Below the pieces are notes generated by a model. It had not been told where the DNA came from. It saw nothing but the letters and a program-made list of their open reading frames with translations, and did no database searches. From Spirochaetaceae bacterium (GTDB lineage: Bacteria; Spirochaetota; Spirochaetia; WRBN01), in assembly GCA_009784515.1 (NCBI GenBank), contig WRBN01000004.1:1-40754 (forward strand): DNA of 40,754 bases, written 5' to 3'. A program made the position numbers and the translations under genes. The first letter of the stretch is position 1. Each line of letters opens with the position of its first letter. Shown here one piece after another: positions 453 through 38,514 of this stretch.

Positions 453-2252
453 ATGGACGAAAACTCGTTTGATAACCTAGTTAAAGATATATCAGTTGAA
501 GAACGCAAAGACCTTTCGGAGAAAATCGGCGAAAGCCTTAGTTTAAGCGAGCCGGTTATCCCTAAGGCTTTTTATTGCGATAAAGCTATCGTAAGTAACA
601 CCAGCCAAGCCGCCGAAATAAACCGGTTTTTACGGCAAGAATATGCTAAGTTTCGCTTCTTTAAACGTTTAGCCATTGGTTTTCAGGTTACTTTTTTAAA
701 AAAAGATAAACAATTAATGATTATGCAGGCCGTTTTAGATAATTTACGCCGGCATATAGAAGAAGGCGGTTATTTTGTCGATTTTGATAGTAATAACTTT
801 ACCGCTAAATTTGCCAAAGAACTTTATCAGCTATCTAACCTTTGTCGGCCGCTTAGGGCCGCCTTTATTAAAATTTGGCGCGATAACGCCACCCTTAATT
901 TAGTGCTAAGCAATTTTTTACAAAGCAGCAAAGAAGAAAGCCTTAACCGTTTTACCGTTTACACCTTTGCCACCAACGAACAGCTATTAGAGGCTTATTC
1001 TAAAAGCAACGATATTAACGATGTACGCAAAGTTATTTTACGCGGTATTAAAAATTATACCGATAGTATACCCGAATCGCATTTTAAAACTATCCGTAAA
1101 AATATTCTGCCTTTTTATTATGTTCAAAGGTTAATTACCTTTAATTACAACGATATTTTTGCTTTATTCGGCACAAAAGTTAGCGGCATAAACGAAAACG
1201 AACACCCGCATTTTAACCCCGCCCCTATCAGTATGGCTTTTAATAATGTCATCAAATTTAACTACTATTTAGTTATGGCTACCAACTTACAATTTACTAA
1301 AGAGATAGCCTCTACCCTTTTTAGGGCTTATTTCGTAAGCGAAGGTTATCCCGAAGACGAACTGCACACTTTAATAGAAGAAAAAATAAAGCAATTGGAT
1401 ACGCTTAGTAAAGGTATCGCTAAATTTAACGGCCGGGTTTACCTTAACGATATAATTGCTTACTACCAAAGTAATCCTCTTTATAAAACCGTGATTGAAC
1501 CCGTACGGCTCGATTTAAAACAGTTTTATAATAATTCGCTAAAGTTAATGGTGTTTGATAATTTTAACGATATAATACAGGAACTAAGGCTAGCTTTTAT
1601 CGACCAAGAGGTGGTAACCATCTTTAAAAACAAACCGTTGACGACCCTTAATTACTATGTATCTTTAAATGACGAAAATTGGCCTAAAGATAAATACCCT
1701 CAATTTAAACATGGCAAAAGTTTAATGCTTATGTACAATTTTTTAAAAGATTGGTACAAAAGTAACTTATTAATTGTAACCAACTTAATTAGCGCCACAG
1801 TTTTAGCTAAAGCCCCAGCTTTACAAGGTAAAATAAACGAATTTAAAATTAAATTTAGTGCGGTAGAGGATAAAATTAAACGGTTTGATAACAGCTTAGC
1901 CCCCGAAACCGAAGCCGGCCAAAGCTTAACTACCTTTAAAAGAGATATAAACGAAGGAACGGCCTCGCCCAAATTATTTAGAGCCTTTATTAACCAGCGC
2001 GATACCGAAGCCTACGAACTATTTCTAGAGGCCTTAGCTATTTTTGATGAATTTAGTAGGTTTACCGTTGCTAAGGTAACTAAATCGCCCACAGAATCGG
2101 TGCGTATGGCCTTAACCGGCTTTTATGCCGGCTTGTCGCGCGAGTTTCCGTTAGGCGAGGTTATTAACAACAACTTAACTACCATAAATAATTTTACGCA
2201 AATGTGTAAAGAGCTTATTGCCTACGAAAGTATCGATGAAAAAGCTTCTTAG
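453..2252 (+). CDS. Conserved spirochaetal hypothetical protein (DUF5312-like?)
   Basis: A 599-residue soluble protein without a signal peptide or membrane segment. It is rich in Asn, Phe and Lys and looks largely alpha-helical. I do not recognise catalytic motifs. From memory it resembles a spirochaete-restricted family of unknown function (DUF5312), but I could not check this. The ATG at 453 follows GTAGGAG at good spacing, so the start is well supported. The stop overlaps the next gene's start by 17 bases, which suggests translational coupling with the membrane protein downstream. Confidence 0.75.
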   Translation: MDENSFDNLVKDISVEERKDLSEKIGESLSLSEPVIPKAFYCDKAIVSNTSQAAEINRFLRQEYAKFRFFKRLAIGFQVTFLKKDKQLMIMQAVLDNLRRHIEEGGYFVDFDSNNFTAKFAKELYQLSNLCRPLRAAFIKIWRDNATLNLVLSNFLQSSKEESLNRFTVYTFATNEQLLEAYSKSNDINDVRKVILRGIKNYTDSIPESHFKTIRKNILPFYYVQRLITFNYNDIFALFGTKVSGINENEHPHFNPAPISMAFNNVIKFNYYLVMATNLQFTKEIASTLFRAYFVSEGYPEDELHTLIEEKIKQLDTLSKGIAKFNGRVYLNDIIAYYQSNPLYKTVIEPVRLDLKQFYNNSLKLMVFDNFNDIIQELRLAFIDQEVVTIFKNKPLTTLNYYVSLNDENWPKDKYPQFKHGKSLMLMYNFLKDWYKSNLLIVTNLISATVLAKAPALQGKINEFKIKFSAVEDKIKRFDNSLAPETEAGQSLTTFKRDINEGTASPKLFRAFINQRDTEAYELFLEALAIFDEFSRFTVAKVTKSPTESVRMALTGFYAGLSREFPLGEVINNNLTTINNFTQMCKELIAYESIDEKAS

Positions 2253-4374
2253 TTTATTTTTATTAATCTTATCGTCTTTTGCTTATGGCCTTACAGCAGA
2301 TGAGTGGCAAAGTTTAAGGGCGCACGAAAACCGTGCCGAAGGCTCTCCCGGCGAAGTTTACACGCTGGCCGTCATTAGGGCGGTGGCTAACCGCCTTAAC
2401 CTGCATGTAAATGAACGCCGTTTTACCGAGCTGGATAACTTTTTTTCTTACTCGGCTAACCTCGAAATTTATATTACCGGTCTATCGGCCGACGAAGTTA
2501 TTTATGCCGTACCGCTCAACAATCCTACGGCCTCGCTGGCGCCGGCGCTTATTTTATTGCAAGAGATGGCCGGCGGCGAAACACCTGTGGTAGGGGCACG
2601 CTTTTTATTTTTAGGGGCTGAAAAAGGCGATCAAGCAGCTTACCCCATAGGCAGCCGGCAATTTTTACAAAGTTATGCCCCCTTTGGTACAAGTGCCGTC
2701 ATCTATCTCGATTTATTAAGCCCCAGCTTGCCTATTAATTTAGCCGCTCAAGGCAACTATATTACCCCTTTATGGGCTTTATATTTAGCCCGCCAAGCCT
2801 TAAGTAATGCCGGCCTAAATTTTACCTTACCCAATAACCGGTTAGCTGCTATCCGCAGCAATTTTTTTACCGATAACCATATAATTGATAACTACCATAA
2901 TTTAAATTATAGTGCGGTACTCTTAAGCACCGCCCTTAATGCAAATATAACCGAAGCAGCCCATGAAGAAGAATGGGCCGCCAATTTAGCTTTAGCTTTA
3001 TACCGGCAGCATTTAAGCCTAAACGAAGTAAACACCCGGCGCGATATTAACTACCTATTAGCCGCTAACTTTTTTATTAGTGAAACCGTTTATATCTTTA
3101 TTTATTTAGCCATTATTTTTATTATGCTTACTTTATTAAAACCTAGCCATTTTAAGGTAGGTTCGTACCTCAAAGCTACCATTAAGTATGGCGGCGAGTT
3201 TTTATTACTGTTTTTGCTTTTATTTATCTTTTTATTTTTGGCCACTTTTTTCATTAAAAATTTATTATTACTTAAACAAAGCGACGAGTTTTGGCGGCAT
3301 CAGCCTTTATTGTTTATGGTGGTTAAGCTTGGGTTTGCCGTTTTCTTTACCAACACCAGCTTTAGGGTGGTACGTTTTTTAGGCTTAGCCAACTCGCCAC
3401 GTCTTTATAATTCGGCGGCTTCGTTATTGGTTATCATTAATTTAATTATCTTTACCTTATGGAACATTACTTTCGGCCTTGTTTGGTTATGGATGGTGGT
3501 AACTTTGGCCATTTTTAACCGTGTAAAACACTCTAATTTAGCCGAACTGCTAATAGTTGTTTCTTATTTACCTTTAACTTATGTTTTTATCGTTTTTTTT
3601 ATTACCCCGTTTTTTAATATCGCCGAGCCGCTGTTGTTTTCGCCTATTTGGGGTAATTTATTTATATCTTTAGTTATTTTTCCTAATTTACTTATGGCTT
3701 TAAGTATTTATCATAAGCAGCGCAGTTTGCAGAAGCGGCAGGCTTACCAAAACTTTTTTTCTTTTGTTTTTTTACCATTAGTAGTTATAGTAACTTTTTT
3801 GTTAATTTATAATTATGTTCCTTACTCCCGCGGCGAGCCGCAGCCTATCTTAGTTATTTTAGAAGAAGAGGTAAATATTAACCGCGCTACCCTGCGTTTA
3901 TTAAGCCCCGAACCGCTGGGCAACATCGATATAACCATAGAAGACACCCACCTTCCACTGGTAAATTTAGGCCGCAGCGCCTTAATTAACTTAACTCCCA
4001 GCACCAACTTTAGCTTACAGGCCAGTAGCGCCCCTATACTTGGCCGTAACCAAACGCAAATTAATTTATATAGCAACCGTACACCCACACGTATCGAGCT
4101 GGAGTTAATTGCCGACCGGGCTTTAGGCTCTATCGATGCCAACTACCCCATTGCTATCGGCAGCTTAGCCGAAACCCCCAATATGGCCACCATCTTTATT
4201 GGTAAAAACCCGCCTATGCCTTTGCAGCTAAATTTAATCCACGAGCGCGGCCTTAACTTTACTTTACAAATTACCGCCTTTTTTGCCGATACTTTTGTAG
4301 AGGCCCCGCCGCGTTTTAATTTAACTAAAGAGCATCAAGTTAGCCAAACTTTGCCGGTTGTTATCAGCCATTAG
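2236..4374 (+). CDS. Membrane protein with degenerate M28-peptidase-like domain
   Basis: I place the start at ATG 2236 rather than 2218, because the protein then begins with a clean signal sequence (MKKLLSLFLLILSSFAYG); it is 712 residues long. Residues of about 20-265 look like an M28 zinc-aminopeptidase fold: a segment VGARFLFLGAEKGDQ aligns with the family pattern FLGAEExG. The usual His/Asp ligands in the preceding strand are replaced (AVPLNNPTAS) and the Glu-Glu pair is Glu-Lys, so catalysis looks lost. About eight membrane segments follow (roughly residues 280-540), then a beta-rich C-terminal domain. The architecture, M28 domain plus a multi-helix membrane part, recalls eukaryotic ERMP1-like proteins; this comparison is an inference. 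Function unknown. Confidence 0.65.
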   Translation: MKKLLSLFLLILSSFAYGLTADEWQSLRAHENRAEGSPGEVYTLAVIRAVANRLNLHVNERRFTELDNFFSYSANLEIYITGLSADEVIYAVPLNNPTASLAPALILLQEMAGGETPVVGARFLFLGAEKGDQAAYPIGSRQFLQSYAPFGTSAVIYLDLLSPSLPINLAAQGNYITPLWALYLARQALSNAGLNFTLPNNRLAAIRSNFFTDNHIIDNYHNLNYSAVLLSTALNANITEAAHEEEWAANLALALYRQHLSLNEVNTRRDINYLLAANFFISETVYIFIYLAIIFIMLTLLKPSHFKVGSYLKATIKYGGEFLLLFLLLFIFLFLATFFIKNLLLLKQSDEFWRHQPLLFMVVKLGFAVFFTNTSFRVVRFLGLANSPRLYNSAASLLVIINLIIFTLWNITFGLVWLWMVVTLAIFNRVKHSNLAELLIVVSYLPLTYVFIVFFITPFFNIAEPLLFSPIWGNLFISLVIFPNLLMALSIYHKQRSLQKRQAYQNFFSFVFLPLVVIVTFLLIYNYVPYSRGEPQPILVILEEEVNINRATLRLLSPEPLGNIDITIEDTHLPLVNLGRSALINLTPSTNFSLQASSAPILGRNQTQINLYSNRTPTRIELELIADRALGSIDANYPIAIGSLAETPNMATIFIGKNPPMPLQLNLIHERGLNFTLQITAFFADTFVEAPPRFNLTKEHQVSQTLPVVISH

Positions 4375-4781: not shown

Positions 4782-5978
4782 TTATTTGCTCTTAGTGGTA
4801 AAACGTTTAGCAAATAGTTCGCTATGGTCGCCCATGTATTTTAACTCGTCTAAATATTGCTCAAGAAGCTGGCTTTCGCCAGCTTCTAACTTCAGACTAC
4901 CTGCTAAATTACAACTTTTAAGGCTAAGCAAAGCTTTTCCCAGCAATTTTTTAGCCATTAAAAAGCCGTTATCCTGTTTATTAATTAATTTACAATAGTT
5001 ATATAACATTGTGCGCGACATTAAAAAGCTGGCAGGGTTTAAAAATTTATCACTATTGGTAAGTAAATCGCTTAAAATTTTGTTGGTTAAATAACTTTCG
5101 TTTAAAGTGTTGTTAAGCAGTAACAAATGAGGTAAGTTAGCTTCTAATTGCTGTAAATTATGGCAGCTTAAAAAATCGGTTATAGCTAACTGGCTGTTAA
5201 GGTTACTCAATGGGCCGGCAGCGGCCGGCAAACCGGTTAAGGCCTTAATTAAAAGCCCTTCGCCTAGCCCGCCGCTTAAAGGGGCTTCGCAGCCCATTAC
5301 ATAACCGCCAAAGCTGGTATAACTAATTAACAAAATAACTAAGGCATTAAAAATGCTGTTATCTTTGTAATTATTGGGCAATAGGTAGTTGGTACCGGCC
5401 AGCATATCGGCTAATTTACTATAATTTAACAAAACATTGTAACGGTAAATGTTCTCGGCATAACCAACTACCACACAGGCATAAAAAAGTTTGCTTAAAC
5501 TATGTTCGTTTTGAGACTCGGCAATAAGTTTATTTAAAGCATAGCTGTTTATAGAAACAAAACTTATCCCCGCTTGGTTGCATAAAAAAAGCTGCTCGGT
5601 AAATAAATAATACAACTCTTCGTGCCAGCTGCTTTGGGTAATATCGTGATTATCTGTAAAAGTTAATCTAAATTTTAGCTTATAAGTGGCTTTAAAGTTA
5701 TTTAAATAATCTAAAAAGTAAACCAGCCCATCGCTGTTTATTATAATATCTTTAAATATAAAATTAAAGATAACGCCGTCATCATAATTTTGTAAGTGGG
5801 CTAAAACCTTAAGCATTTCGTCTTTGACAAAAATTAAATAATTTTTGTTGCCGTCTTCAAAATTATCCAAAGTTATGTTATACTCAAAGTGTATTTTGCC
5901 ATAACCTAAAGTTAATCCATTTAAATTAATGGGTTTGAGTGCTTTACCAAAGGTAAAATCGTTAATATTATTATACAT
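4782..5978 (-). CDS. Hypothetical protein, probably leaderless
   Basis: A 398-residue cytoplasmic protein rich in Asn, Leu and Tyr. I recognise no family. The N-terminal half (about 1-165) looks alpha/beta; the C-terminal half is helical and Leu-rich, with a Gly/Ala/Pro segment near 225-255 (GGYVMGCEAPLSGGLGEGLL). The start codon has no Shine-Dalgarno sequence. Instead TATAAT ends 6 nt upstream of the ATG, with TAGACA 17 bp further up, so transcription should begin at or next to the A of the start codon. It is divergent from the thiN gene with only 25 bp between the two starts. It ends at the shared terminator at 4742-4776. Confidence 0.65.
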   Translation of the reverse strand: MYNNINDFTFGKALKPINLNGLTLGYGKIHFEYNITLDNFEDGNKNYLIFVKDEMLKVLAHLQNYDDGVIFNFIFKDIIINSDGLVYFLDYLNNFKATYKLKFRLTFTDNHDITQSSWHEELYYLFTEQLFLCNQAGISFVSINSYALNKLIAESQNEHSLSKLFYACVVVGYAENIYRYNVLLNYSKLADMLAGTNYLLPNNYKDNSIFNALVILLISYTSFGGYVMGCEAPLSGGLGEGLLIKALTGLPAAAGPLSNLNSQLAITDFLSCHNLQQLEANLPHLLLLNNTLNESYLTNKILSDLLTNSDKFLNPASFLMSRTMLYNYCKLINKQDNGFLMAKKLLGKALLSLKSCNLAGSLKLEAGESQLLEQYLDELKYMGDHSELFAKRFTTKSK

Positions 5979-8892: not shown

Positions 8893-11340
8893 ATGAGCGA
8901 TTATTTTGATAGTGATGAGCTTTTAAAAGATTTTTATCTTGAAGCAGAGCAACAAGTTGAAATTTTAGAACATAATATTTTAGCTATTGAAAATGATAAA
9001 AGCGACAGCGATGCTATCGACGAAATATTTAGGGCTGCCCATACGCTAAAGGGCGGAGCAGCTACGGTACAAATGACCGAACTGGCCGAGTTTACCCATA
9101 TAGTAGAAGATTTACTCGATGCCATAAGGGCCAACAAAGTTACCATTATTACCGCTACTATCGATGCGTTGCTCGAGGCCCTCGATGTTATTAAGGCAAT
9201 GCTGGAAGAGCGTAAAAACGGCAGCATTTATAACCAAGATGTTAGCGACCTTAAAACTATCTTAAAAGGCCTTACCGCCGGCAGCACCGTGCCTTCCGCG
9301 CCGCCGGCAGCAGCCCCCGTTGCTCCTGCTCAAACCGCCGCCGCCGTTCCGCAACCCGCCGATGAAAGTCAAATTGACGGCAGTTTAGTGGCCAACAACG
9401 GCCCTTCGGCCGAGCTTACCCAAGATGATATAGAAGAAATGCAGGCGGCCCTTCCCTCCGGCGCTACTTTATATCGTGTGCGTGTAGAATTTGACGAAGC
9501 TAACCCCATGAACTCGGTAGGCGGTATCCAAGTATTTGCCAGTCTTAAAACGATAAGCCAAGTGCTGCGGACCTTCCCCGATTTTGATAAACTTTACGAA
9601 GATAACTTTTTTCCTTTTGTCGATTATTATATCGCCAGCAGCAACCCGCTTAACGAGATTGAGGCTAAAGGCTCTATCTCCGATGCTACCCTATCAATAG
9701 CGGTAAGTAATGTCAGCCAACTTCAAATAGTAGGCTCGGCTGTTCCCGCTCAACCCGCTGTAGCTGCTCCGCCGGCCATCAGTGAACCACCGGCAGCAAC
9801 ACCGCCGCCGCAACCGATAGCTGCCGCTCCGGCCGTAACGAACGAAGTAAACGACTCTGGTATAGCCAACCTGCCGCTTAACGAAGAAGAGCAGTTGGCC
9901 CGGCGGGCTCCGGCCGCCGGCTCTACTAAAGTAGAAACCACGCAAATGCTTAATGTGGATTCTAAACGTATCGATGTGCTTTTAAATTTGGTCTCCGAAA
10001 TTGTTATTACCAAAGGAGCGTTTAACCAAGTTTTAGGGCAATTAAACAATAATGTAGCCAGCTTTCAATATGTAAAAAGCACCTATAATATGGCTTTAAA
10101 GAAATTTATCGATAATTTGCCCGATTTAATTACCAATATGAACAGCGGCGAATTTACCATTAAAGATGTGCGTAAATCGGTAACCAACTCTTTTCAGGAT
10201 ATTTTCTTTGCCCTGTTAGGGTTTGAAGCCGAATTGCGCGGCGTAGAGGGTAAAATTAAAGGAGTGGCCACCGATTTAGGCCGCACCACCAACGAACTGC
10301 ACGAAAGTGTGCTTAAAGTGCGCATGGTGCCGGTAGATAAAACCTTTAAACGTTTTCCTAAATTGGTGCGCGACCTTTCGCGTAGCCTCAATAAAGAGGT
10401 GCACCTCGAAATTATTGGCGGTGAAACCGAAATGGACAAAACCGTAGCCGAAAAATTAACCGACCCTTTAATGCACTGCGTACGCAACAGTATGGACCAC
10501 GGTATCGAGCTGCCCGATGTGCGCGAGCGGCGCGGCAAAAGCCGCGAAGGCAATTTAATTTTAAAGGCCAGTAATCAGGGTAATACCGTTATCATCGAAA
10601 TTACCGATGATGGTAATGGCATCGATGTTAATGCCATTAAAGCCAAAGCCATTGAGCGCGGCATTATTAAAGAAGATAAAGTTTTAAGTAACCAAGAGGC
10701 CTTTAACTTAATGATGGAGCCCGGTTTTAGCACCGCCAAACAAATTACCAATGTTTCGGGGCGCGGTGTGGGGCTTGATGTAGTAAAGCGCTCGATAGAG
10801 GGCTTAAACGGCGAGATTAGTATTTGGAGCGAGCTGGGGCACGGCACCACTTTTACTATTAAACTGCCTTTAACTTTAGCTATTATTCAGGGCTTAATGG
10901 TGCGGGTAGCCAAAAACATTTTTGCTATCCCTATTGTCAACGTGCTGGAGAGTTTTAGGATTAAACCCAGCGAGATTAACCAGCTGGATAACTTTGAGGT
11001 ATTTAATGTGCGCGAAGATGTGGTATCTATCTTGCGTTTAAGTAAAATTTTTGGTATTACGGCCGACCCCGACCAAGAACATAATTTTATTGTAGTAGTA
11101 GGCACAGAAGATAAAAAAGTTGGCTTAATGGTAGATTCGCTTATTGGCGAAGAAGATGTGGTTATTAAACCCTTAAAAGACCAGTATGCCGCCAGTAAAG
11201 GCATAGCCGGCGCTACCATCTTAGGTGATGGTACGGTAAGCCTAATCATCGATGTGGCCGAGCTGTTGACTTTAGGCTATCAAAAAGAGCTAGAAATGCG
11301 TACTGATAACCGCCAAAGTTTAGCTTTAAATGAGGTATAA
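8893..11340 (+). CDS. cheA: Chemotaxis histidine kinase CheA
   Basis: Autophosphorylates on His and passes the phosphate to CheY. Order of domains in 815 residues: P1/HPt with the phospho-acceptor His50 in FRAAHTLKGGA; a Pro/Ala linker (about 135-165); a P2-like CheY-binding domain (about 180-285); a second Ala/Pro linker; P3 dimerisation (about 350-475); P4 kinase with the N-box HCVRNSMDHG, G1 DDGNGID, F-box EPGFST and G2 GRGVGLDVV; and P5, which is CheW-like. P3 is clearly longer than in enteric CheA (about 125 residues against about 65). An extended P3 is also a feature of Treponema CheA as I recall. A TAAGGT motif precedes the start. The stop lies just upstream of the cheW start, next to its binding site. 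Confidence 0.96.
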   Translation: MSDYFDSDELLKDFYLEAEQQVEILEHNILAIENDKSDSDAIDEIFRAAHTLKGGAATVQMTELAEFTHIVEDLLDAIRANKVTIITATIDALLEALDVIKAMLEERKNGSIYNQDVSDLKTILKGLTAGSTVPSAPPAAAPVAPAQTAAAVPQPADESQIDGSLVANNGPSAELTQDDIEEMQAALPSGATLYRVRVEFDEANPMNSVGGIQVFASLKTISQVLRTFPDFDKLYEDNFFPFVDYYIASSNPLNEIEAKGSISDATLSIAVSNVSQLQIVGSAVPAQPAVAAPPAISEPPAATPPPQPIAAAPAVTNEVNDSGIANLPLNEEEQLARRAPAAGSTKVETTQMLNVDSKRIDVLLNLVSEIVITKGAFNQVLGQLNNNVASFQYVKSTYNMALKKFIDNLPDLITNMNSGEFTIKDVRKSVTNSFQDIFFALLGFEAELRGVEGKIKGVATDLGRTTNELHESVLKVRMVPVDKTFKRFPKLVRDLSRSLNKEVHLEIIGGETEMDKTVAEKLTDPLMHCVRNSMDHGIELPDVRERRGKSREGNLILKASNQGNTVIIEITDDGNGIDVNAIKAKAIERGIIKEDKVLSNQEAFNLMMEPGFSTAKQITNVSGRGVGLDVVKRSIEGLNGEISIWSELGHGTTFTIKLPLTLAIIQGLMVRVAKNIFAIPIVNVLESFRIKPSEINQLDNFEVFNVREDVVSILRLSKIFGITADPDQEHNFIVVVGTEDKKVGLMVDSLIGEEDVVIKPLKDQYAASKGIAGATILGDGTVSLIIDVAELLTLGYQKELEMRTDNRQSLALNEV

Positions 11341-11341
11341 T

Positions 11342-13045
11342 ATGAGCGGTATAATGGCAAATAACAAAGAAAACTTAATAAACCTTGATTATAAAATGGT
11401 AACTTTTTCGCTGGGCGACAGAGATTACGGCATTAATATTTTAAGTATTAAAGAAATTCAAAAAGGAAACCGCTTTACTTATATCCCTAATGCCCCCGAT
11501 TATGTACGCGGCGTTTACAACTTGCGCGGCGAAATTATTAGCGTGGTAGATTTACGCACTTTTTTTGGTATTGCCGTTAAAAGTAAGGCCGAAAAACCGG
11601 CCGAAGAATTAATTTGCCGGAATTGCCCCGTCGAAGAAAAACAATGCGAAACCTGCCCGGTAGCTTTTGCCCAAAGCGAATTAGAAAAAGAAAAGGCCCT
11701 CAATGAATTAGCCAAAAATGAAAAAATTAATAACGCCGGCTGGCGGCGCAAAGAAAATGCGGGCAATGCCCAGCTGGAAAATATTTTAATCGCGCGTATC
11801 GGCGAAACTACTTTAGGTATTATTGTGGATAGTATTAGTAAAGTAATCAATGTCGATTCGGGCACTATTCAACAGGCTCACCCGCTTTTTGCCGATGTTA
11901 ATATTCAATATATTTATGGGATTGTCGAAAAAGAAGAAAAACTTTACATTATTTTAGATATTGATAAAATCTTTGGTAAATACGATAGCGAAAAAACCGC
12001 CGAAGGCACACCGGCCGCCGCCGTAGCCCCGCAAACCACAGCCGCTGTCCAGCGTCAGCAGGTAATTAGCGCACCGCCGGTTTACGAGGAGATAGTGCCC
12101 TATCAGCCGCCGGCCGCCGCCGAAGTTATAGAAGAAGAAGTACCTACCCCGCTCTCTAAAGATGAGCTGGCCGAACTGTTAGAGCCATTGCCTAACCAAG
12201 ATTTACCCGATGAGGCCGATAAAAGCCGCCTTTTAGCTTTAAACACAGAAGGCATAGACCCGATGGCGGCGGCGGCGCAGCTTAATACTGAGCAATTAAA
12301 AGAGCAGCTTCATAATCTAAGCGGAATTTATATTAATGATGTTAATGAAAACTGGTTTACCGAACGTGTGGCCGAGTACAACCATCAGCTGGGAGCGGCA
12401 GCTTTAAATATGAGCAGCAGCGAAGAGGCTGCCGATTTTTTAAATACTTTTTATTCGCGCTGTAGCGAAAGTTTATGGGACGACCTTTTGCTTAACGAAT
12501 TAATTAGCCTGCTGCCCGATGAAGCGGCCGATGTTTTTGATATATCTTCCGTCAACCCTAACAATAAAGGTAATATCTTTTATATTTGGAATATCGGCTG
12601 TGCCGGTGGTTACGAAAGTTATTCGGTGGCGGTAGCGGCTTTGCAAAAAAACGATAAAATAAAAGTGGTAGCCCAAGATAAAGATTTACTCAAAGTGGCC
12701 TCGGCTACCAGCTTAACGGTACCAGAACCCACCGATATATCACCTCTTTACCGGCCTTATTTAAGCGAAGCCGGCGGCAGCTGGCAATTTAGTAACGAAC
12801 TCAAAAATATGATTATTTTTGAGTACCACGATATTAACCATGCTCACAAACCACCCGGTCTTAACTTAGTAGTGGTGCGTGATGTGCTCTCGTTCTTAGA
12901 GGCTGAGCAGCAACAAAAATTATTGGACGAAATAACCCGGCTGGCAGCTAAAGGTGTTATTTTAATTGTTGGCGATAACGAAGTTATAAATAGCGATAGC
13001 TGGCAGCGGTTAGACAGCAGCCTATCGGCTTACCAAAAAATATAA
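11342..13045 (+). CDS. cheW: CheW scaffold fused to a CheR-like domain
   Basis: Couples receptors to CheA. Residues of about 15-215 form a CheW domain. It is split by a roughly 70-residue insertion that carries C92-x2-C95-x6-C102-x2-C105, a possible metal site. After an acidic/Pro linker, residues of about 310-567 resemble CheR. The SAM loop reads IWNIGCAGGYESYSVAV where CheR has GCSTGEEPYS, and the usual CRNVLIYF is VRDVLSFL, so methyltransferase activity is doubtful. CheW-CheR-like fusions are known scaffold parts of Treponema denticola receptor arrays. I use ATG 11342, because GAGG lies 6 nt upstream; the earlier ATG at 11330 lacks a site. It lies between cheA and cheX. Confidence 0.93.
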   Translation: MSGIMANNKENLINLDYKMVTFSLGDRDYGINILSIKEIQKGNRFTYIPNAPDYVRGVYNLRGEIISVVDLRTFFGIAVKSKAEKPAEELICRNCPVEEKQCETCPVAFAQSELEKEKALNELAKNEKINNAGWRRKENAGNAQLENILIARIGETTLGIIVDSISKVINVDSGTIQQAHPLFADVNIQYIYGIVEKEEKLYIILDIDKIFGKYDSEKTAEGTPAAAVAPQTTAAVQRQQVISAPPVYEEIVPYQPPAAAEVIEEEVPTPLSKDELAELLEPLPNQDLPDEADKSRLLALNTEGIDPMAAAAQLNTEQLKEQLHNLSGIYINDVNENWFTERVAEYNHQLGAAALNMSSSEEAADFLNTFYSRCSESLWDDLLLNELISLLPDEAADVFDISSVNPNNKGNIFYIWNIGCAGGYESYSVAVAALQKNDKIKVVAQDKDLLKVASATSLTVPEPTDISPLYRPYLSEAGGSWQFSNELKNMIIFEYHDINHAHKPPGLNLVVVRDVLSFLEAEQQQKLLDEITRLAAKGVILIVGDNEVINSDSWQRLDSSLSAYQKI

Positions 13046-13071: not shown

Positions 13072-13536
13072 ATGCGAATTGACTATATCAACCCTTTTGT
13101 AGAATCGGCCTTTTCGGTAATGCACGAAATATTAGGTTGCGAAATAAAGCGAGGTGATTTATACTTAAAAGGTAAAACGCAAAGCATTTTAGGGGTAGCT
13201 ACCATCGTCGGCTTAGCCGGCAGCGTAGAGGGGCGGGTTATTTTAGATATGAAAACGAGTACAGCCTTAGCTATTGCCAGCGCCATGAACTTTGAAGAGC
13301 TAACGGTAGTGGACGATTTAGTACAAGCCACCATTACCGAGCTGGCTAATATTATTACCGGCCGAGCTGTATCACGCCTGCACGAAATGGGCTTTAAATT
13401 TGATATTACACCGCCTGCTATTATTACAGGCGAAGGTACTAAAATTCATGATGCCGGGATAGAAGCTTTAATTGTACCGCTGGAAATGCCGCTGGGTAAA
13501 GTTGAAGTTAATGTGGCCATAAAGGAAAGGGGGTAA
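13072..13536 (+). CDS. cheX: CheY-P phosphatase CheX
   Basis: Dephosphorylates CheY-P to end the response. At 154 residues it has the usual CheX length, starting MRIDYINPFVESAF, with the catalytic helix ITELANIITGRA holding the E-x-x-N pair (about residues 89-92), and a glycine-containing strand at about 40-55. It has a strong ribosome binding site (AGGAG) and sits 26 bp after cheW and 5 bp before cheY. The tight order cheW-cheX-cheY is typical of spirochaetes, where CheX takes the place of CheZ. Confidence 0.95.
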   Translation: MRIDYINPFVESAFSVMHEILGCEIKRGDLYLKGKTQSILGVATIVGLAGSVEGRVILDMKTSTALAIASAMNFEELTVVDDLVQATITELANIITGRAVSRLHEMGFKFDITPPAIITGEGTKIHDAGIEALIVPLEMPLGKVEVNVAIKERG

Positions 13537-13541
13537 TTTAA

Positions 13542-13970
13542 ATGAATGAAATACCGGGAATAGCAACAAAAGAGCCGCAAGGGCTTAAATCTGATGGTTC
13601 ATCTTATCGGGTAATGATAGTTGACGACTCTATGTTTGTAGCCAAACAAATTGGCCAAATTTTAAGCAGTGAAGGTTTTGAGGTAGTGGCCACCGTAGGT
13701 GATGGCGAAGCTGCCGTAGAGCAATATAAAATACTGCAATCTAAAATAGATTTAGTAACGATGGACATTACCATGCCTAAAATGGACGGCGTTACCGCCC
13801 TAGAAAAAATTATCGAGTTTGACCCTAACGCTAAAATTGTTATGATAAGCGCTTTAGGGCGGCAAGATTTGGTAAAAAAATCGTTAATGTTAGGGGCCAA
13901 AAACTATATTGTTAAACCGCTAGACCGTAAAAAGGTATTGGAGCGCGTGGTAAGCGTAGTACGTAACTAA
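13542..13970 (+). CDS. cheY: Chemotaxis response regulator CheY
   Basis: A single receiver domain (142 residues) that binds the flagellar switch when phosphorylated. The acidic pocket is Asp28-Asp29, the phospho-acceptor is Asp75 (VTMDITMPKMDG), the switch Ser is Ser103 (MISALG) and the conserved Lys is Lys125 (VKPL). About 20 extra residues precede the usual first strand. A strong purine-rich site (AAAGGGGG) lies before ATG 13542. It is the last che gene of the block; fliS follows after 65 bp that contain a short GCTAA/TTAGC hairpin without a T-run. Confidence 0.96.
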   Translation: MNEIPGIATKEPQGLKSDGSSYRVMIVDDSMFVAKQIGQILSSEGFEVVATVGDGEAAVEQYKILQSKIDLVTMDITMPKMDGVTALEKIIEFDPNAKIVMISALGRQDLVKKSLMLGAKNYIVKPLDRKKVLERVVSVVRN

Positions 13971-14896: not shown

Positions 14897-17083
14897 ATGA
14901 AAAAGCTAATAATAGTTATATCTCTTCTATTTTTATTGCCGCTTAATATTTTAGCGCAAGATAGGCCGCGTATTGGCCTAGCTTTGGGTGGCGGGGCGGC
15001 TTTGGGTTTAAGCCATATTGGTGTACTTAAAGTGCTGGAAGCTTACAATATCCCCATCGATATTGTAACCGGTACCAGTATTGGCTCGTTAATTGGGGCT
15101 TTGTATGCTTTAGGCTATACCGCCGCCGAAATAGAACACATTGTGGTAAACGAAATAGATTTTACCCGTATTTTAGATGACACTTTGCACCGCCGTTTTC
15201 AGGATATGGCCACCAAACTTTACAACTTTAACTCGCCGCTGTCTCTCTCTTTTGGCTATAATCGAGCCGGCCAAAGATTCAGCGGCCTTTCGGAAGCTAT
15301 CGAGCTGGAGAGTCTCTTCGATTATTACAGTTGGCCCAGCGGCCGTTTTAATAGTTTTACCGAATTTCCACGCGCTTTTGCCGCCATCACCACCAATTTA
15401 CAAACCGGCGAGGCGGTGCGCTTAACCGACGGCCCGTTAAGCGTGGCTTTGCGTGCCAGTATGGCCTTCCCTACCATCTTTACACCGGTTAGGCACAACG
15501 GTATAATTTTAAGCGATGGCGGCCTTACCCGTAACTTACCGGTAGAAGACGCCTTTGCTTTAGGGGCCGATATTGTAATTGCCATCGATTTAAACCCGCG
15601 CTTTCCCGATACCGGCAACCCCAGCATTTTTACCAGTTTAGCCGAGTTGCTGTTAAGCCAAGCTAACGAAATAAATTTAGCCCAGCGTGCCTTAGCTAAT
15701 GTGGTTATTATGCCCGATTTAAGCGATTTTGAGTTATACAGTTTTGGCCGGGCACGCGAACTTATCTTTGAGGGCGAACGCGCCGCTTTGCTGGCCATCG
15801 AGCAACTGCTACCGTTGGCGCAGCCGGATAATCAATTTGTCCTTGCGCCGCGCATATACAATGAACCGGTTTTAATAGAAAACATCGAGATAGACGGCAC
15901 AACGGCTACCGCCTTAGTTTTAAGCTACTTAAATATTAGCGCCCCAGCTTATATAGAGTTAGATACCTTATGGCCGGCTATGCGCCGCCTTAGCTTTAAC
16001 GGCCACTTTAAACGCGCTCGCTTTAACTATAGCGGTACCACCTTAATTATTACTTTAGAAGAAAATTTACCTTATCGTGTAGGCATAAATTTACGTTACG
16101 ATTCCGATTTTAGTTTAAGCGCCGGCTTTTCGCTTGGTTGGTTATCTGCCGGCAGCTGGCTAATGAACGGCCAAACCAGCTTGCTTTATCAAAACGGTTT
16201 TAAAAATGTGGGCTACTTCGGCCTTGTGTATGGCCAGCTGCATTGGCTGGAGCTTTTTAGCACGTGGTATATAAACGATAGTCTTAGGCCGCTGCCGGTT
16301 AGGCCGGCCAACGATATTGTCCCCTTAAGAAGCGAACTTAATGATTACCATATTAATTTAGGGCTAGCCGTTAATATTTCTTCTATCAGCCGTTTAGAGG
16401 CCGCCTATCGTTTAGGACATTTTTCTACCGGCCACGTACAAACACCGTTTATCGAAAAAAATTTTTTTGATGTACAAGGTAATCTTTCGGCCCTTATCTT
16501 TAGTTTTCATATCGATACCGAAAACAATGCTCACTACCCGCGCTCGGGCTTAAAGTTTAGCGCTCATAGTTACATCGGGTTAGCTCCCTTTAACGAAAGC
16601 GGCGAGTTTATCCGGCTAGATTATTTAATGCGTTATAACATTCCTTTTGCAGCCCTTAACCGCCGTTTACCGCTGCACGGCGAGCTTTCGTTTACTTTGG
16701 GCAGCAGCGGCGGTATGCTGTTTGGCGATGAGGCAGCCGCTTTGCCTTTAATTTTTGTACTGGGCGGTATGACCGGCCGTAATAACCTGCTAACTATGCC
16801 GGGTTTTGAGATAGGCACCGCTTACGGGCTATCGGCTTTAAGTTTTAACGCCGGCTTAATGTATACTATGCTCTCGCGCCTGCATATTATAGCTAAATGG
16901 AATGCCGCTTTTATCAGTTTAAACAGCCCCGATTATAATTTGTTTAACGAGCAAAATTTGTACCAAACCGCCGGCCTAAAAATAGCTATAGATTTTACCA
17001 TAGTTCGCCTTGAGCAAGGGCTTTACTGGAACATTAACCGTAACCGCCCCTATATAACTATCGTTATCGGCAGCTCTTTTTAA
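14897..17083 (+). CDS. Patatin-like phospholipase with outer-membrane barrel (PlpD/RssA type)
   Basis: A secreted lipid acyl hydrolase of 728 residues. A signal peptide (about 1-20, ending ILAQ) is followed by a patatin domain (about 24-285) with the oxyanion GGGAALG loop, nucleophile Ser61 in GTSIG and Asp207 in DGGLTRN. Next come a POTRA-like segment (about 310-375, ENIEIDGTTATALVLSYL) and a beta-barrel to the C-terminal Phe, the usual end of Bam-inserted proteins. This order matches PlpD-type (type Vd) autotransporters, so the patatin domain could be exposed or released. No clear ribosome binding site is seen before ATG 14897. It lies 23 bp after the FliT-like gene and may be cotranscribed. 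Confidence 0.9.
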   Translation: MKKLIIVISLLFLLPLNILAQDRPRIGLALGGGAALGLSHIGVLKVLEAYNIPIDIVTGTSIGSLIGALYALGYTAAEIEHIVVNEIDFTRILDDTLHRRFQDMATKLYNFNSPLSLSFGYNRAGQRFSGLSEAIELESLFDYYSWPSGRFNSFTEFPRAFAAITTNLQTGEAVRLTDGPLSVALRASMAFPTIFTPVRHNGIILSDGGLTRNLPVEDAFALGADIVIAIDLNPRFPDTGNPSIFTSLAELLLSQANEINLAQRALANVVIMPDLSDFELYSFGRARELIFEGERAALLAIEQLLPLAQPDNQFVLAPRIYNEPVLIENIEIDGTTATALVLSYLNISAPAYIELDTLWPAMRRLSFNGHFKRARFNYSGTTLIITLEENLPYRVGINLRYDSDFSLSAGFSLGWLSAGSWLMNGQTSLLYQNGFKNVGYFGLVYGQLHWLELFSTWYINDSLRPLPVRPANDIVPLRSELNDYHINLGLAVNISSISRLEAAYRLGHFSTGHVQTPFIEKNFFDVQGNLSALIFSFHIDTENNAHYPRSGLKFSAHSYIGLAPFNESGEFIRLDYLMRYNIPFAALNRRLPLHGELSFTLGSSGGMLFGDEAAALPLIFVLGGMTGRNNLLTMPGFEIGTAYGLSALSFNAGLMYTMLSRLHIIAKWNAAFISLNSPDYNLFNEQNLYQTAGLKIAIDFTIVRLEQGLYWNINRNRPYITIVIGSSF

Positions 17084-26389: not shown

Positions 26390-26399
26390 AGGTATGAAA

Positions 26400-27434
26400 A
26401 TGAAAAAAATTATTTTATTATTAGCGGCCGCCTTGTTTATTGTAAGTTGCGGTAACGATAATACCGTAGAGGTTTATGTGCCGCCGGCCGCCGATGAAAG
26501 TTTTGTTACGCCGGTTACCCCTATCGCCGAGATACCGGCTGCGGTGGTTATTCAGCAAGATACTCTTTTGTTTAGAGGGGTAAACGCCAACGGCGGCCTG
26601 ATTAACGGCCTTGCTTTGCCTATCGGCAGTACCGTCATTTTAGACGAAGAAACCCCGCCGCATAGTAACGGCCACGTGCGCGCCAGCGATTTAGCCAGCG
26701 GCGAATCGGGATTTATCAGCCCGCACGCCATTTTAAGACATGGCGTACTAGCAGTAGTCAATATCCCTAATGTTGCCTTAAGGCAAAATCCCGATAATAT
26801 CCGTATCGCCGATGCAACCATACCGGCTATGGCCATTGTGGGTATTGTACCAAACAGCGAACGTAACGGGTTTGTCGAGGTTAAATATATGTCGCACTTT
26901 TGGCTGCGGGTGCAAAATCACTTCATCAATTTAAACGATGTTAGTTTAAACCCTACCGACATTACTTTAGCTACTCTTTATTATTTGGCTTTAAACGAAC
27001 GTAACCCAACTTTAAGAGACCGTTATATGAACGAGGCTTTGGCGCTGGCTAACGAAAATCTTTTTAGTGCGGCGTATATTTTTGCCTTCCACGAGTTTTT
27101 ACAAAGGCCTGTCTTTAACCCTATTGCCGCCAATACCGCCAGCTTACGCGAAAGAAGCGCTACCACTTTTTTTGCCGAGCCTAACCCGTACAGCTTGCAG
27201 CTGGCCACCATCTTTACCCCCATTTTGCCTACCAGTTTAGCCAATCTTAATTTGGTAGAAGAGCTGGCCGATTTTCAGGGCAATATCTGGGTGCGCGATG
27301 CCAATTTTGGTTTTGTGCCGGCCAGTAATATTAATCTTACCTTTACGGCTCCTCCGCCTGCTCCGGCACCGGTTGCGGCTCCGCAGCCGGAAGTAACGGC
27401 GGCCGATGATGACGCACCCATAAGAGAGGAATAA
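26400..27434 (+). CDS. Lipoprotein with SH3-like segments
   Basis: A 344-residue membrane-anchored protein with a lipoprotein signal peptide: MKKIILLLAAALFIVSC, lipid-modified Cys17. ATG 26400 has AGAGG at 7-nt spacing and is preferred to the upstream ATG at 26394 or longer forms. Residues of about 60-110 and 115-170 look like SH3b-type beta domains (SGESGFISPHAIL, NVALRQNPDNI). A helical part follows, then a last SH3-like piece and an acidic Pro/Ala tail. Two bases separate it from galU. Its job is unknown; an envelope role is likely. Confidence 0.8.
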   Translation: MKKIILLLAAALFIVSCGNDNTVEVYVPPAADESFVTPVTPIAEIPAAVVIQQDTLLFRGVNANGGLINGLALPIGSTVILDEETPPHSNGHVRASDLASGESGFISPHAILRHGVLAVVNIPNVALRQNPDNIRIADATIPAMAIVGIVPNSERNGFVEVKYMSHFWLRVQNHFINLNDVSLNPTDITLATLYYLALNERNPTLRDRYMNEALALANENLFSAAYIFAFHEFLQRPVFNPIAANTASLRERSATTFFAEPNPYSLQLATIFTPILPTSLANLNLVEELADFQGNIWVRDANFGFVPASNINLTFTAPPPAPAPVAAPQPEVTAADDDAPIREE

Positions 27435-29448: not shown

Positions 29449-30591
29449 TTAAGTTGTTAAAAGCTCTTTTAAGCTTTGGGCTCCCGGTAGCTTCTCTAGG
29501 GCTAAAGCTCGCTCGCAATCGGCTAAAGCATTTAAATGGTCGTTTAATTGGTAATAAGCACGAGCACGGCCTAAATAACTATGAGCGCTAATCTTTAAAT
29601 TAATACTATGGTTAAAATTATCAACGGCTTTTTGATAGTTTTGCTTTAATAGCAAACAAATGGCTAAATAGTAAAAATTTTCGGCGCCGGCTTCAATGTT
29701 TACAGCTGCTTGATAATCGGCACAGGCTTCCTCTATTTTATTACAGCTAAGATAAGCTGCTGCTCGATGACTTAACACTAAACCGCTTGTTTTAGCCGAA
29801 ATATTTTTATCGTTAAGTAACTTACTGTAAAAATTAATGGCCGCTTGATAGTGGCCCGCGTTATGAGCTTTTAGCCCCAGCAGTAAATAATTACCGGCAG
29901 ATAAATTATTTGGTAAAACTTCAAAATTTACCGTGAACAGCTCTTCGATATGAGCATCAAGGCGGCTTTGGCGCAAATTACTTTGGTTTTTTACCTCTTT
30001 TTGCTCGTTGCGTGTCTCCTGAAAAATAATATCGGCCAAAGTTAAGCTGGCATTAATAGCAGCCATTTTACGGCGCAAGTTTTGGTCTTGCGGCGCATAG
30101 CTATCGCTGTAAACAAGTTGGTGCTCTACCTCGGCCCAAGCATCTTGCAGGATAGTACGTATTTGTATTTCTATGCATAAATCGGTAAAATCAATTATTT
30201 GATATTCTTCCGGTAATTTAATAAGTAAATGAGTACTGTCATAACCAAATTCTTTAAAAGTTAAATTCATAGCTTTTCGCTCTACTTCAAGGGTTTGATA
30301 ACGTTTTTCGATAAATTCTTCCAGCAGTAAAGCTTCTCCCGAAAAGGGAACAATAAGACGCACCGCTAATAAATCGCTGCTAACCGGCATAATAGCTTTA
30401 TTATTATAATTTCCTTTTTGACACAATTTACTATAAAGACTATTTAGTTCTTTAACGCGTCCTTTATAGGTAATGGGGCTGGCAAAAAGTGATAACTGCC
30501 CTTTTAAATGCTCGATAAAGGCCTGCAAAGTTATCTCTAACTCTAAATAATATTTGCTGTAAAGGTCTTCTAGTTGTTCAAAACTAAGCAT
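29449..30591 (-). CDS. RelA/SpoT-domain protein with TPR repeats
   Basis: A probable (p)ppGpp synthetase-type protein of 380 residues. Residues of about 25-165 carry the RelA_SpoT synthetase motifs: GRVKELNSLYSK (44-55), Asp73 and Arg78 (DLLAVR), YDSTH (117-121), and EIQIRT with Glu141, Gln143 and Arg145, then His157. There is no hydrolase domain. Residues of about 215-375 contain roughly four TPR units (for example HRAAAYLSCNKIEEACADYQ), which suggests regulation by a partner protein. GGAG at 6-nt spacing fixes ATG 30591, inside the 3' end of rlmN (8-nt overlap). Activity cannot be inferred for certain; the usual YRSIH Arg is Asp here. Confidence 0.88.
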   Translation of the reverse strand: MLSFEQLEDLYSKYYLELEITLQAFIEHLKGQLSLFASPITYKGRVKELNSLYSKLCQKGNYNNKAIMPVSSDLLAVRLIVPFSGEALLLEEFIEKRYQTLEVERKAMNLTFKEFGYDSTHLLIKLPEEYQIIDFTDLCIEIQIRTILQDAWAEVEHQLVYSDSYAPQDQNLRRKMAAINASLTLADIIFQETRNEQKEVKNQSNLRQSRLDAHIEELFTVNFEVLPNNLSAGNYLLLGLKAHNAGHYQAAINFYSKLLNDKNISAKTSGLVLSHRAAAYLSCNKIEEACADYQAAVNIEAGAENFYYLAICLLLKQNYQKAVDNFNHSINLKISAHSYLGRARAYYQLNDHLNALADCERALALEKLPGAQSLKELLTT

Positions 30592-32350: not shown

Positions 32351-33337
32351 CTAACGCTCGGTGCCCAAGTTGGTAACCTCGTAGTCGTAAATAAGCCAAA
32401 TACCATTATCGCCGCGCCTTAAAAACCATCTAAACTCGCGTACTTCGTTAAATTGCCGCTGGCGGTAAACTTGGCGCGTGGTAACTACGGCATTAGTCGG
32501 GGTAAAAAAGGTAGATAAAATAGTAAATTCGTAAGGAATGGTCGATAAATCCATTTCGGTAGTAACGGCCATAAGCTCGGCCCTAAAATCGGCTAACATT
32601 TGCGCCCTTACCTCGACGGCGGCAAATTGGTAACGGCGTGCTCTATCGATATTACGTAAAAATAGCTGCTCTAAATCAATGTATAAAAAGAACCTGTCCC
32701 ATTGTTCCAGCTGCCTTGCCTGTAAAGTAAAGTTCATAATTTCATCGGGCGGTAAGTTTTGCTGCTGGAGTATTTCGGGTATTTCGCTATCTAAACTATC
32801 AATAAATGTACGCCCCGGCATAAACGGGCGGATGGTTAAAGATAAACTATTAGCCTGTAAAGCATCGGCCTGCAAGGTATAATTAACTATAGGGTTAGCT
32901 ACTGCGGCCGCAGCTAAGCCGGCTTGCGGCCTAAAACTAACCCTGATAATATAATTACCGGGCTGGCTAATATCAACAAAATCGCGCAAGCTAACCTCAA
33001 AGCTATGTTCCTCGCCGCTGCGCAAGCTCTTTAGGCGGTACAGCACCGGCCGCGTTTCGTTAGAGCGGGTGCGCCTCATAAAAATTTCGGAGGGCCTAAG
33101 CTGCTGATTGGTAAGGGTAAGTACCATAATATCGACATTAAAAAATGGTTCATCGGCCAGCTGGAAGAGAAAATCTTCGGCCGACAAATTACGGATAGCT
33201 AACCTAAGTTTAATATCGGAATGCGGGTAATAAACTTGTTTATCCTGAAAACGTACGCTAAATTCAATATTATTAGCGCTTTGCGCCGCCACAGTAAAGC
33301 AGCTAAAGATAAATATAAAGAGAGCAATTTTTGGCAT
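32351..33337 (-). CDS. Secreted hypothetical protein, Ig-like N-terminal domain
   Basis: A 328-residue exported protein: signal peptide about 1-18 (MPKIALFIFIFSCFTVAAQS), then a beta-rich domain (about 22-165) with the feel of an immunoglobulin or BsuPI-like fold (NIEFSVRFQDKQVYYPHSDIKLRL), a helical middle and a C-terminal beta segment (REFRWFLRRGDNGIWLIYDYEV). It has no catalytic motif or membrane helix. It is probably periplasmic. ATG 33337 has only a weak purine site (GCGAGAA). It seems to be transcribed alone. Family unknown to me; it may be a treponemal conserved protein. Confidence 0.7.
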   Translation of the reverse strand: MPKIALFIFIFSCFTVAAQSANNIEFSVRFQDKQVYYPHSDIKLRLAIRNLSAEDFLFQLADEPFFNVDIMVLTLTNQQLRPSEIFMRRTRSNETRPVLYRLKSLRSGEEHSFEVSLRDFVDISQPGNYIIRVSFRPQAGLAAAAVANPIVNYTLQADALQANSLSLTIRPFMPGRTFIDSLDSEIPEILQQQNLPPDEIMNFTLQARQLEQWDRFFLYIDLEQLFLRNIDRARRYQFAAVEVRAQMLADFRAELMAVTTEMDLSTIPYEFTILSTFFTPTNAVVTTRQVYRQRQFNEVREFRWFLRRGDNGIWLIYDYEVTNLGTER

Positions 33338-36906: not shown

Positions 36907-38514
36907 ATGTTTAAACAAATTGTTTTGGTGTTATTTTTGCTTAATATGAGTTGGCTTTACGGCCAGCAACAACAATATATTGTTAGTCAGATTAATTTTG
37001 TTATCGAAGGCGGTTTAATGGGCGGTAACACCAGCGAGCAAGCGCTTTTAGCACGGTTAGCCCGTACCGAAGGACGGCAAGATGCCGCCAACCAACTTTA
37101 TGTAGGCCGTACCTTTACCAGCCTTAACGATTTAAACGGGCGCATAAACCATTGGCAGTGGGTGCTTAACGGCCTTAACGCCTTTCGCAGCGCCGCTATT
37201 ACGTCTCAAATTACCGGGCAAACCGATAGCCAAGGCCGCATTATGGTGCAAATAACTATTATGGCCATCGAAGACGGTAATATGCTGCTTTTGCCTTACC
37301 CGCGTATCGATTCTAACACCGGCCTTACCTTTGGCCTAAGGCTTAGGCACTTTAACTTTTTGGGCCTCCTGCGCAGCTTAGAGTGGGATTTTAACTACGT
37401 AAACAATAGTGATGGCCGCCAATTTAACAGCGATATTCGTTACCACATTCCTATTATTGCCTTTAACCGCCTTTTTACCTTAAGTTTTAACGCCGGCGGT
37501 AATTTTTATCCCGAAAATCCCGAAACCGGCAGCAACGATTTAAAACACGATAGCCGTATCGCTGCCGGCGGTATCGGCCTTGATACTTGGTGGCAGCTTA
37601 GCCAAAATATCCGTTTAAATACTTTTGTCCGCCAACAGGTAAGGGTAAATGCTACCGCCATTGATGACAGTTTTCCGGAAGCCACCGACCCCTACTTTTT
37701 AACCACTACCGTTGGGCTTACCATACCAGTACCGCTGTGGCAAACACCTATCGGCCATATTTGGTATACCTTTAATAGCGGGTTAAATATGAACTACCGG
37801 CTGGAAGACAGTATTCAGGACAGCCGGGCCGGTTATGTGCCTTGGGCAAATAACCGCCTTTCCATCTGGAATGTACAGAACATGGGTAACTTTAGGCATG
37901 GCTTTCATGCCAATGCCGGTATCAATACCAGCGTCGATTCCTCAAAGGCCCGGCGGTTTGGCCTGTGGGGCGAAGAACGTGATGGCAGCCCCGAACAATA
38001 TGCGTGGAACGTTGTTATTGACGCCACCTTTACCGGATTTACTAGGCTAAGCGAGCAATTAGGGATAAGCGGCCGCATCGGTTTTAATTACAGTATCTTC
38101 CGCGACCGTCAAGATGGTGATGAAAATTTGGGGCGTTTTGCCCGCGGTATTAGAGACGACCGTATTATCGGCGATATGCTCTTTTTTTGGAACTTAACCT
38201 TAATTAATAATGTTTTTTTATGGCAGTTTAGCGGTATTGGCGAGCTGCACGGCCATATTACCTACGATGGTATGCTGGTGCGTAACTATAGGGCCGATTG
38301 GCAAAAACCTTACAACGCTTTAGGGCTAGAGCTGGTGTACTACCCCGCTTTTTCTAACAACTTTAGGATTAGAGCCAGCATAGCCGCCGATATTGAAGGG
38401 ATAATTAATAACTCTAATATCTTCGGCGAAATTTACCGGCCAGAGGCTAACCCGCCGCGCGGTGTAGGCGGCTCGCAATTTGAGATGTTTTTTGGCTTAG
38501 AACTTCATTATTAG
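36907..38514 (+). CDS. Omp85/BamA-like outer-membrane protein
   Basis: A 535-residue exported protein: signal peptide about 1-20 (ending WLYGQ), a POTRA-like N-terminal domain (about 24-125, QINFVIEGGL... NDLNGRINHWQWVLN), then an antiparallel beta-barrel of about 400 residues ending in Tyr (MFFGLELHY). It has one short POTRA-like unit and is much smaller than BamA (about 800), so it resembles BamA/TamA-related surface proteins rather than the assembly factor itself. A -10/-35 pair and dyad precede the start. A terminator follows at 38534. Confidence 0.78.
   Translation: MFKQIVLVLFLLNMSWLYGQQQQYIVSQINFVIEGGLMGGNTSEQALLARLARTEGRQDAANQLYVGRTFTSLNDLNGRINHWQWVLNGLNAFRSAAITSQITGQTDSQGRIMVQITIMAIEDGNMLLLPYPRIDSNTGLTFGLRLRHFNFLGLLRSLEWDFNYVNNSDGRQFNSDIRYHIPIIAFNRLFTLSFNAGGNFYPENPETGSNDLKHDSRIAAGGIGLDTWWQLSQNIRLNTFVRQQVRVNATAIDDSFPEATDPYFLTTTVGLTIPVPLWQTPIGHIWYTFNSGLNMNYRLEDSIQDSRAGYVPWANNRLSIWNVQNMGNFRHGFHANAGINTSVDSSKARRFGLWGEERDGSPEQYAWNVVIDATFTGFTRLSEQLGISGRIGFNYSIFRDRQDGDENLGRFARGIRDDRIIGDMLFFWNLTLINNVFLWQFSGIGELHGHITYDGMLVRNYRADWQKPYNALGLELVYYPAFSNNFRIRASIAADIEGIINNSNIFGEIYRPEANPPRGVGGSQFEMFFGLELHY

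Follow-up and report, generated by a model that had tools for sequence, protein, structure and literature searches.

A cysteine-bearing insert in the CheW domain of a spirochaete CheW-CheRlike protein

A CheWS gene among chemotaxis genes

The window analysed here, by which we mean the whole stretch of 40,754 nucleotides from a Spirochaetaceae genome (contig WRBN01000004.1), carries a CheW-CheRlike (CheWS) gene within a run of chemotaxis genes. These genes and the features of CheWS discussed below are located as follows.

8893..11340, + strand: cheA, with Hpt, P2, dimerisation, HATPase and CheW/P5 domains (Pfam), directly upstream of CheWS
11342..13045, + strand: CheWS (CheW-CheRlike) gene, 567 aa (Pfam, homology and fold matches)
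11576..11773, + strand: insert between conserved CheW blocks, residues 79-144 (66 residues, about 58 beyond other CheWS)
11615..11656, + strand: codons of the cysteine quartet C92, C95, C102 and C105 (CRNCPVEEKQCETC)
11678..11734, + strand: predicted helix behind the quartet, residues 113-131 (AlphaFold2; block means 83 for 111-120 and 68 for 121-130)
12260..13042, + strand: CheR-like domain, about residues 307-567 (Pfam 407-552, VIA-align to 1bc5_A over 307-567, F518)
13072..13536, + strand: cheX (Pfam), downstream of CheWS
13542..13970, + strand: cheY (Pfam), downstream of cheX

A GAGG (11332-11335) lies just 5' of the CheWS start codon at 11342. The order cheA-CheWS-cheX-cheY, with frames identified by sequence likeness, is also found in the sister lineage G001, the only other genome of the family and order compared (same family, other genus).

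Pfam matches to CheW (2e-29, N-terminal) and CheR (6e-30, C-terminal) occur in one frame of this gene, the CheR SAM-binding domain covering residues 407-552. What the initial annotation called a CheW-CheR fusion is a known protein, CheWS, whose C-terminal domain is CheR-like and is reported as a SAM sensor in passages of PMC7666581 and PMC10653840. The same passages describe the T. denticola CheWS as a CheA-binding, SAM/SAH-sensing scaffold and model it within the CheA:CheW ring; in the T. denticola protein, the CheR Tyr is replaced by Phe (Y218F, in T. denticola CheR numbering) and the Arg by Trp (R79W), according to part of PMC7666581.

The window protein is like its T. denticola counterpart in domain order, in its cheA, cheX and cheY neighbours, in the Phe at the CheR Tyr position and in the residues of the SAM-pocket motif. 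In alignments, F518 pairs with the Tyr of the classical CheR of the same genome, and the pocket residues E425 and D446 are present, nearly invariant and common to classical CheR. W379, nearly invariant in 57 sequences, is aligned to a Phe beside the CheR Arg (one column off), or elsewhere in the global option, and never to the Arg. Apart from its insert, this is a typical CheWS scaffold of spirochaetes, and SAM binding and incorporation into CheA:CheW rings are predicted for it from T. denticola. What distinguishes it from the CheWS of T. denticola and other Spirochaetia is the presence of about 58 additional residues, with four cysteines, in the beta5-beta6 loop of CheW. As a separate observation, the CheWS of L192 (G001, 2203-3765) and L026 retain Tyr, so that the Y218F mark is not universal.

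The insert and its cysteines

The Pfam CheW match of the window protein is split into two pieces (best piece 19-82), and the loop between the conserved blocks is 58 residues longer than the CheWS mode. The initial annotation had described a CheW part interrupted by about 70 residues and holding a cysteine quartet within 11603-11700. The interruption is real, its length was roughly right (66 residues, 79-144), and the quartet codons fall within that interval (11615-11656). The metal-type spacing that it had read, C-x2-C-x6-C-x2-C, is likewise present: the quartet reads C92-x2-C95-P-x5-C102-x2-C105-P, that is, two CxxCP turns six residues apart. The whole protein has only two other cysteines (374 and 420). 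In the insert, E, K, A and N are abundant and 36% of residues are charged.

Cysteine accounts for 0.54% of the 12,013 residues encoded by 30 ORFs of the window, the insert's own cysteines being counted. At this frequency, the probability of at least four cysteines in 66 residues is 0.0005, and a C-x2-C-x(2,12)-C-x2-C pattern is expected 1.1e-4 times in 12,013 residues and 6e-7 times in 66, while one was observed and the other 29 window ORFs contain none. The quartet is thus well beyond chance; the margin is large, though both tests are post hoc.

We compared the insert region among 224 distinct CheWS frames from 276 loci, the window protein included. Frames were read from stop to stop and had to be at least 100 aa long with both a CheW and a CheR-like match at E <= 1e-3; identical frames and one frame contained in another were removed. 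The loci are the better matches from homology searches rather than a census of CheWS (in the profile-alignment search of genome contigs, the best 80 of 162 relatives were examined), and loci with no qualifying frame, such as 18 of the first 195 (other CheW/CheR genes, truncated or broken frames), were left uncounted. In an alignment that adds 29 other CheWS to the window protein, all 29 show an unbroken CheW domain, and only the window protein has an interrupted one. Our measure of the beta5-beta6 loop is 61 in the window protein, against a mode of 3, and among the 223 other frames it is 16 in L177 and 0-7 in the remaining 222. CheW-domain cysteines number zero in 210 frames, one in 13 and four in the window protein alone. 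Neither insert nor quartet was found in any of the 223 other spirochaete CheWS frames, which agrees with the initial annotation that canonical CheW has no such insertion and speaks against its suggestion that the feature may be known in some treponemes. The alignment check that it had proposed shows that the four cysteines are not conserved in the homologues compared, which formally goes against its reading, but the nearest homologue compared is only 41% identical.

Searches beyond these frames gave a similar picture. With the insert and its flanks as query (residues 60-166), matches were obtained in 68 of 394 Spirochaetia genomes, own genome included; within these 68, no other left-side match extended beyond residue 95 (query 36) and no right-side match started before query 81, the sole exception being a 24%-identity stretch in G304 (query 3-76) that runs through a TGA at a locus with no CheWS frame. 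A tblastn search of 72,556 plasmids with the insert returned no match at E 10. Pattern searching retrieved 55 stretches in genome contigs and 8 in viral contigs, none of them confirmed, in collections that may omit the nearest records of the window genome. Concerning the literature, no cysteine insert in CheW appears in the titles and abstract openings surveyed on CheW, CheWS, WspD and metal sites, and in the portions of PMC7666581 and PMC10653840 searched, the word "cysteine" occurs 0 times in each and "insertion" once and 0 times, respectively; PMC9788364 contained no mention of the terms looked for.

Two observations on other CheWS can be added here. The L177 protein (G443), whose loop measure of 16 compares with the mode of 3, carries no cysteine in the loop, indicating that the site tolerates length change. 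In addition, 20 of the 224 frames have a CxxC in their CheR-like half (13 CLAC, as in L018 and L226; 5 CIGC, as in L029 and L034; 1 CVGC; 1 CLVC). CIGC forms part of the SAM motif, and CLAC directly follows that motif; neither belongs to the CheW domain or has any relation to the insert.

The insert is genuine coding DNA, and its codon usage matches that of the remaining gene. Its codon log-odds are 0.594 per codon in frame, the five alternative frames give -1.28 to -0.04, and pieces of the same length from the CheWS gene have a mean of 0.457 (sd 0.118); its GC3 is 0.44, versus 0.42 for the gene, and none of its 66 in-frame codons is a stop. An insert carried by a single genome might also be an assembly artefact, in which foreign sequence was misjoined to the gene when this 129-contig draft was assembled. 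We consider this highly improbable, as 66 codons are open in frame with gene-like codon usage and GC3 and lie flush with conserved blocks on both sides, no second copy of the insert exists in its own genome at E 10, and the repeats in and around it are only short and mostly imperfect.

In searches at E 10, the insert matched only the Pfam families DUF6901 (best 0.11), FhuF_C (best 0.16) and WhiB (0.81), all of them below cut-off; FhuF_C, the best Fe-S family match, scored 12.3 bits against a cut-off of 20.5. No NCBIfam match was obtained, and the sole PDB sequence matches, TPX2 (0.73) and RBM22 (5.4), were taken as chance.

The full AlphaFold2 model (57 sequences) has a mean pLDDT of 81 and a pTM of 0.55, the CheW and CheR-like cores being mostly at about 90 or more. 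It resembles CheW 2qdl_B (VIA-align Z 19.1, rmsd 2.5, 141 aligned) and CheR 5ftw (Z 21.3, rmsd 2.5, 177 aligned), and the fold matches listed cover mainly residues 16-211 and 371-567. The modelled order is strand 64-70 (beta5), short helix 71-74, insert, and strand 146-153 (beta6). Block means of pLDDT in the cysteine loop are 55, 48 and 64, and values fall under 50 at residues 95-101 and 130-142. When the insert was modelled alone (one sequence), the score was 59 and a low-confidence helix appeared at the same place as helix 113-131 of the full model. Low model confidence also marks the long linker (about 216-290) that joins the CheW and CheR-like domains.

Origin and analogues of the insert

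The CheWS of G001 is 41% identical to the window CheWS and lacks the insert. We built a tree of 106 of the 224 frames (those of even-numbered loci plus the window and G001 frames, length-filtered, insert taken out), in which the window and G001 proteins pair as sisters on long branches (SH-aLRT 99). Because G001 and every other sampled frame are devoid of the insert, its origin is best explained by a gain on the window branch after the split from G001, a derived state. It thus looks like an add-on to a known protein that is lineage-specific as far as sampled, the nearest homologue compared being the G001 protein at the identity given above.

A cysteine motif is a feature of WspD-type CheW proteins. 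A WspD-type peptide used as query matched 20 plasmid records, of which four proteins were read. The Mesorhizobium protein has C19-x11-C31-P-x7-C40-x2-C43-P upstream of its CheW domain (86-227), and its gene lies within a CheW-CheR-CheW-kinase operon; the other three share its cysteine spacing. Thus, all four combine a CheW domain with a CP...CxxCP cysteine module, as the window protein does. They differ from it in cysteine spacing (C-x11-C-x8-C-x2-C versus C-x2-C-x6-C-x2-C in the insert), in the position of the module (N-terminal to CheW, instead of inside the CheW domain) and in operon (Wsp-like, with CheW, CheR, CheW and a CheA-type kinase, versus cheA, cheX and cheY here). The CP-x7-CxxCP module of WspD-type proteins is the nearest analogue of the insert.

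A WspD-type cysteine module, relocated or convergent, might now occupy the internal loop, a scenario that would be compatible with zinc binding and that we regard as rather unlikely. Out of 1000 shuffles, 1, 2, 16 and 2 reached the local similarity of the insert to the four modules; with the cysteines fixed, 11, 1, 30 and 4 of 1000 did so. The order is also common to both, with CP-x5 (insert) or CP-x7 (WspD-type) preceding CxxCP, and in both a stretch rich in Ala/Leu or Ala/Glu and helical-looking follows CxxCP (by look only for the WspD helicity). However, the first cysteine spacing is unlike (x2 here, x11 there), the module stands elsewhere in the protein, the similarity covers little sequence (three of the four alignments span 5-13 residues) and comes partly from the matching of CxxC, and no credible module was detected in 392 Spirochaetota genomes. 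The similarity is therefore suggestive and no proof of homology. As regards a Spirochaetota donor of the module, the weak matches obtained in 147 of the 392 genomes (E <= 1) are regarded as noise, stop codons being present inside the best two (E 0.001).

Other cysteine elements are more distant. Zinc knuckles, zinc ribbons and Fe-S turns, as a class, share with the insert two CxxC pairs with following prolines, whereas the insert has no family or PDB sequence match. CZB domains are separate helical domains with Cys and His ligands. At Pfam E <= 1, the window CheWS contains only CheW and CheR, and no CZB domain. CZB zinc domains, which are known HOCl sensors, are fused to some CheW proteins (PMC10653840; see also PMC8262984), and they resemble our case in that a metal-type cysteine element is attached to a CheW coupling protein; the element here is a small Cys4 loop inside CheW instead of a separate domain.

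Possible roles of the insert

Our best explanation, held with about even confidence, is that the insert is a putative structural Cys4 zinc knuckle near the CheA-binding side of CheW that tunes array packing. The CheW domain would have gained, in this lineage only as sampled, a mini-module of about 58 residues in its beta5-beta6 loop. The four cysteines of the two CxxCP turns would most likely bind one metal ion, probably Zn2+, which would hold a short knuckle in place on the helix that follows (113-131). In part of PMC3737408, the kinase-contacting region of CheW comprises the beta3-beta4 loop with beta4 and beta5, and since the insert exits at the end of beta5, we infer that it lies near CheA P5. 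As the loop would leave CheW beside the surface contacting P5, the module would most likely be structural, tuning array packing through a stiff contact or spacer added to the rim of the CheA:CheW:CheWS ring.

CxxC pairs with following Pro occur in many metal knuckles, and the insert offers four potential metal ligands in two such pairs. The zinc knuckle is further favoured by a quartet far beyond chance in a Cys-poor background, by an insert in frame with the gene's own codon usage, by the CP and CxxCP module near CheW in WspD-type proteins, and by the AlphaFold2 domain boundaries with a helix behind the cysteine loop. Against it stand the lack of a metal-site family or PDB sequence match, the single occurrence among 224 frames, the E/K/A/N-rich, 36% charged composition, which is like that of flexible linkers, and the low pLDDT of the cysteine loop (insert-only score 59), which makes the site a candidate only. 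Even so, a knuckle is the simplest way to interpret a pair of CxxCP turns followed by a helix. The initial annotation had also proposed a structural clamp for the fusion; the position of the insert, between the two halves of CheW rather than at the junction of CheW with the CheR-like domain, counts mildly against this.

The linker-like composition just mentioned, the low model confidence of the insert and its presence in one of 224 frames would also suit a passenger insertion, that is, a drifting, mostly unfolded Glu/Lys-rich loop with neither metal nor function, tolerated as it points to the solvent; moreover, the CheW-CheR-like linker is similarly long and of low confidence. Such a passenger is a serious rival, though less likely in our view than the knuckle, as it would have to account for four cysteines in two CxxCP turns where cysteine is so rare, and for a moderately confident helix directly behind them. 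Alternatively, the quartet could be a redox or O2 sensor (the initial annotation had envisaged a redox or metal sensor), which would bind an Fe-S cluster or form reversible disulfides and alter CheA activity via the scaffold, as a second input beside SAM. CxxCP turns do occur in Fe-S proteins, and clusters can probably be made by this bacterium, whose genome has a NifU_N gene; NifU_N was, however, found in 12 of 14 control genomes and thus does not discriminate. The HOCl-sensing CZB domains fused to some CheW proteins, mentioned above, are another point in favour of a sensor. As C-x2-C-x6-C-x2-C is unlike the classical CxxCxxCxxxCP motif and every Fe-S family match falls below the family cut-off (FhuF_C comes nearest, at E 0.16), we view this sensor as unlikely. 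Less likely still would be a scaffold acting as a two-input sensor, its CheR-like domain responding to SAM and the CheW Cys4 to metal or redox state, so that kinase activity would be changed without any receptor.

Within chemoreceptor arrays, CheW belongs to the more constrained components, and a Cys4 insert beside its kinase-binding side would show that a new module can be accommodated on this surface. If the putative knuckle does bind metal, it would provide a handle on how spirochaete arrays, with their unusual ring order, are tuned, as well as a parallel to the WspD-type cysteine module; if it does not, the insert would be a neutral loop in one lineage.

Other features of the genome and window

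Elsewhere in the same genome, contig C69 carries a CheW gene together with a 693-aa frame of CheA-like length that ends in a CheW domain (G000:C69, 491-898 and 3174-3554; L004, L005, L195); this pair is perhaps a second chemosensory cluster. In the window, four ORFs have no Pfam match at 1e-4: 2236-4374 (712 aa), 26394-27434 (346 aa), 32351-33337 (328 aa) and 36907-38514 (535 aa). The 398-aa protein encoded at 4782-5978 (- strand) matches MtaB (methanol-cobalamin methyltransferase, 1e-15) over its last 100 residues, and the rest of it has no Pfam match at the same threshold. A patatin-like phospholipase is fused to an Omp85-type barrel at 14897-17083 (+ strand), and at 29449-30591 (- strand) a RelA/SpoT synthetase domain is followed by TPR repeats.
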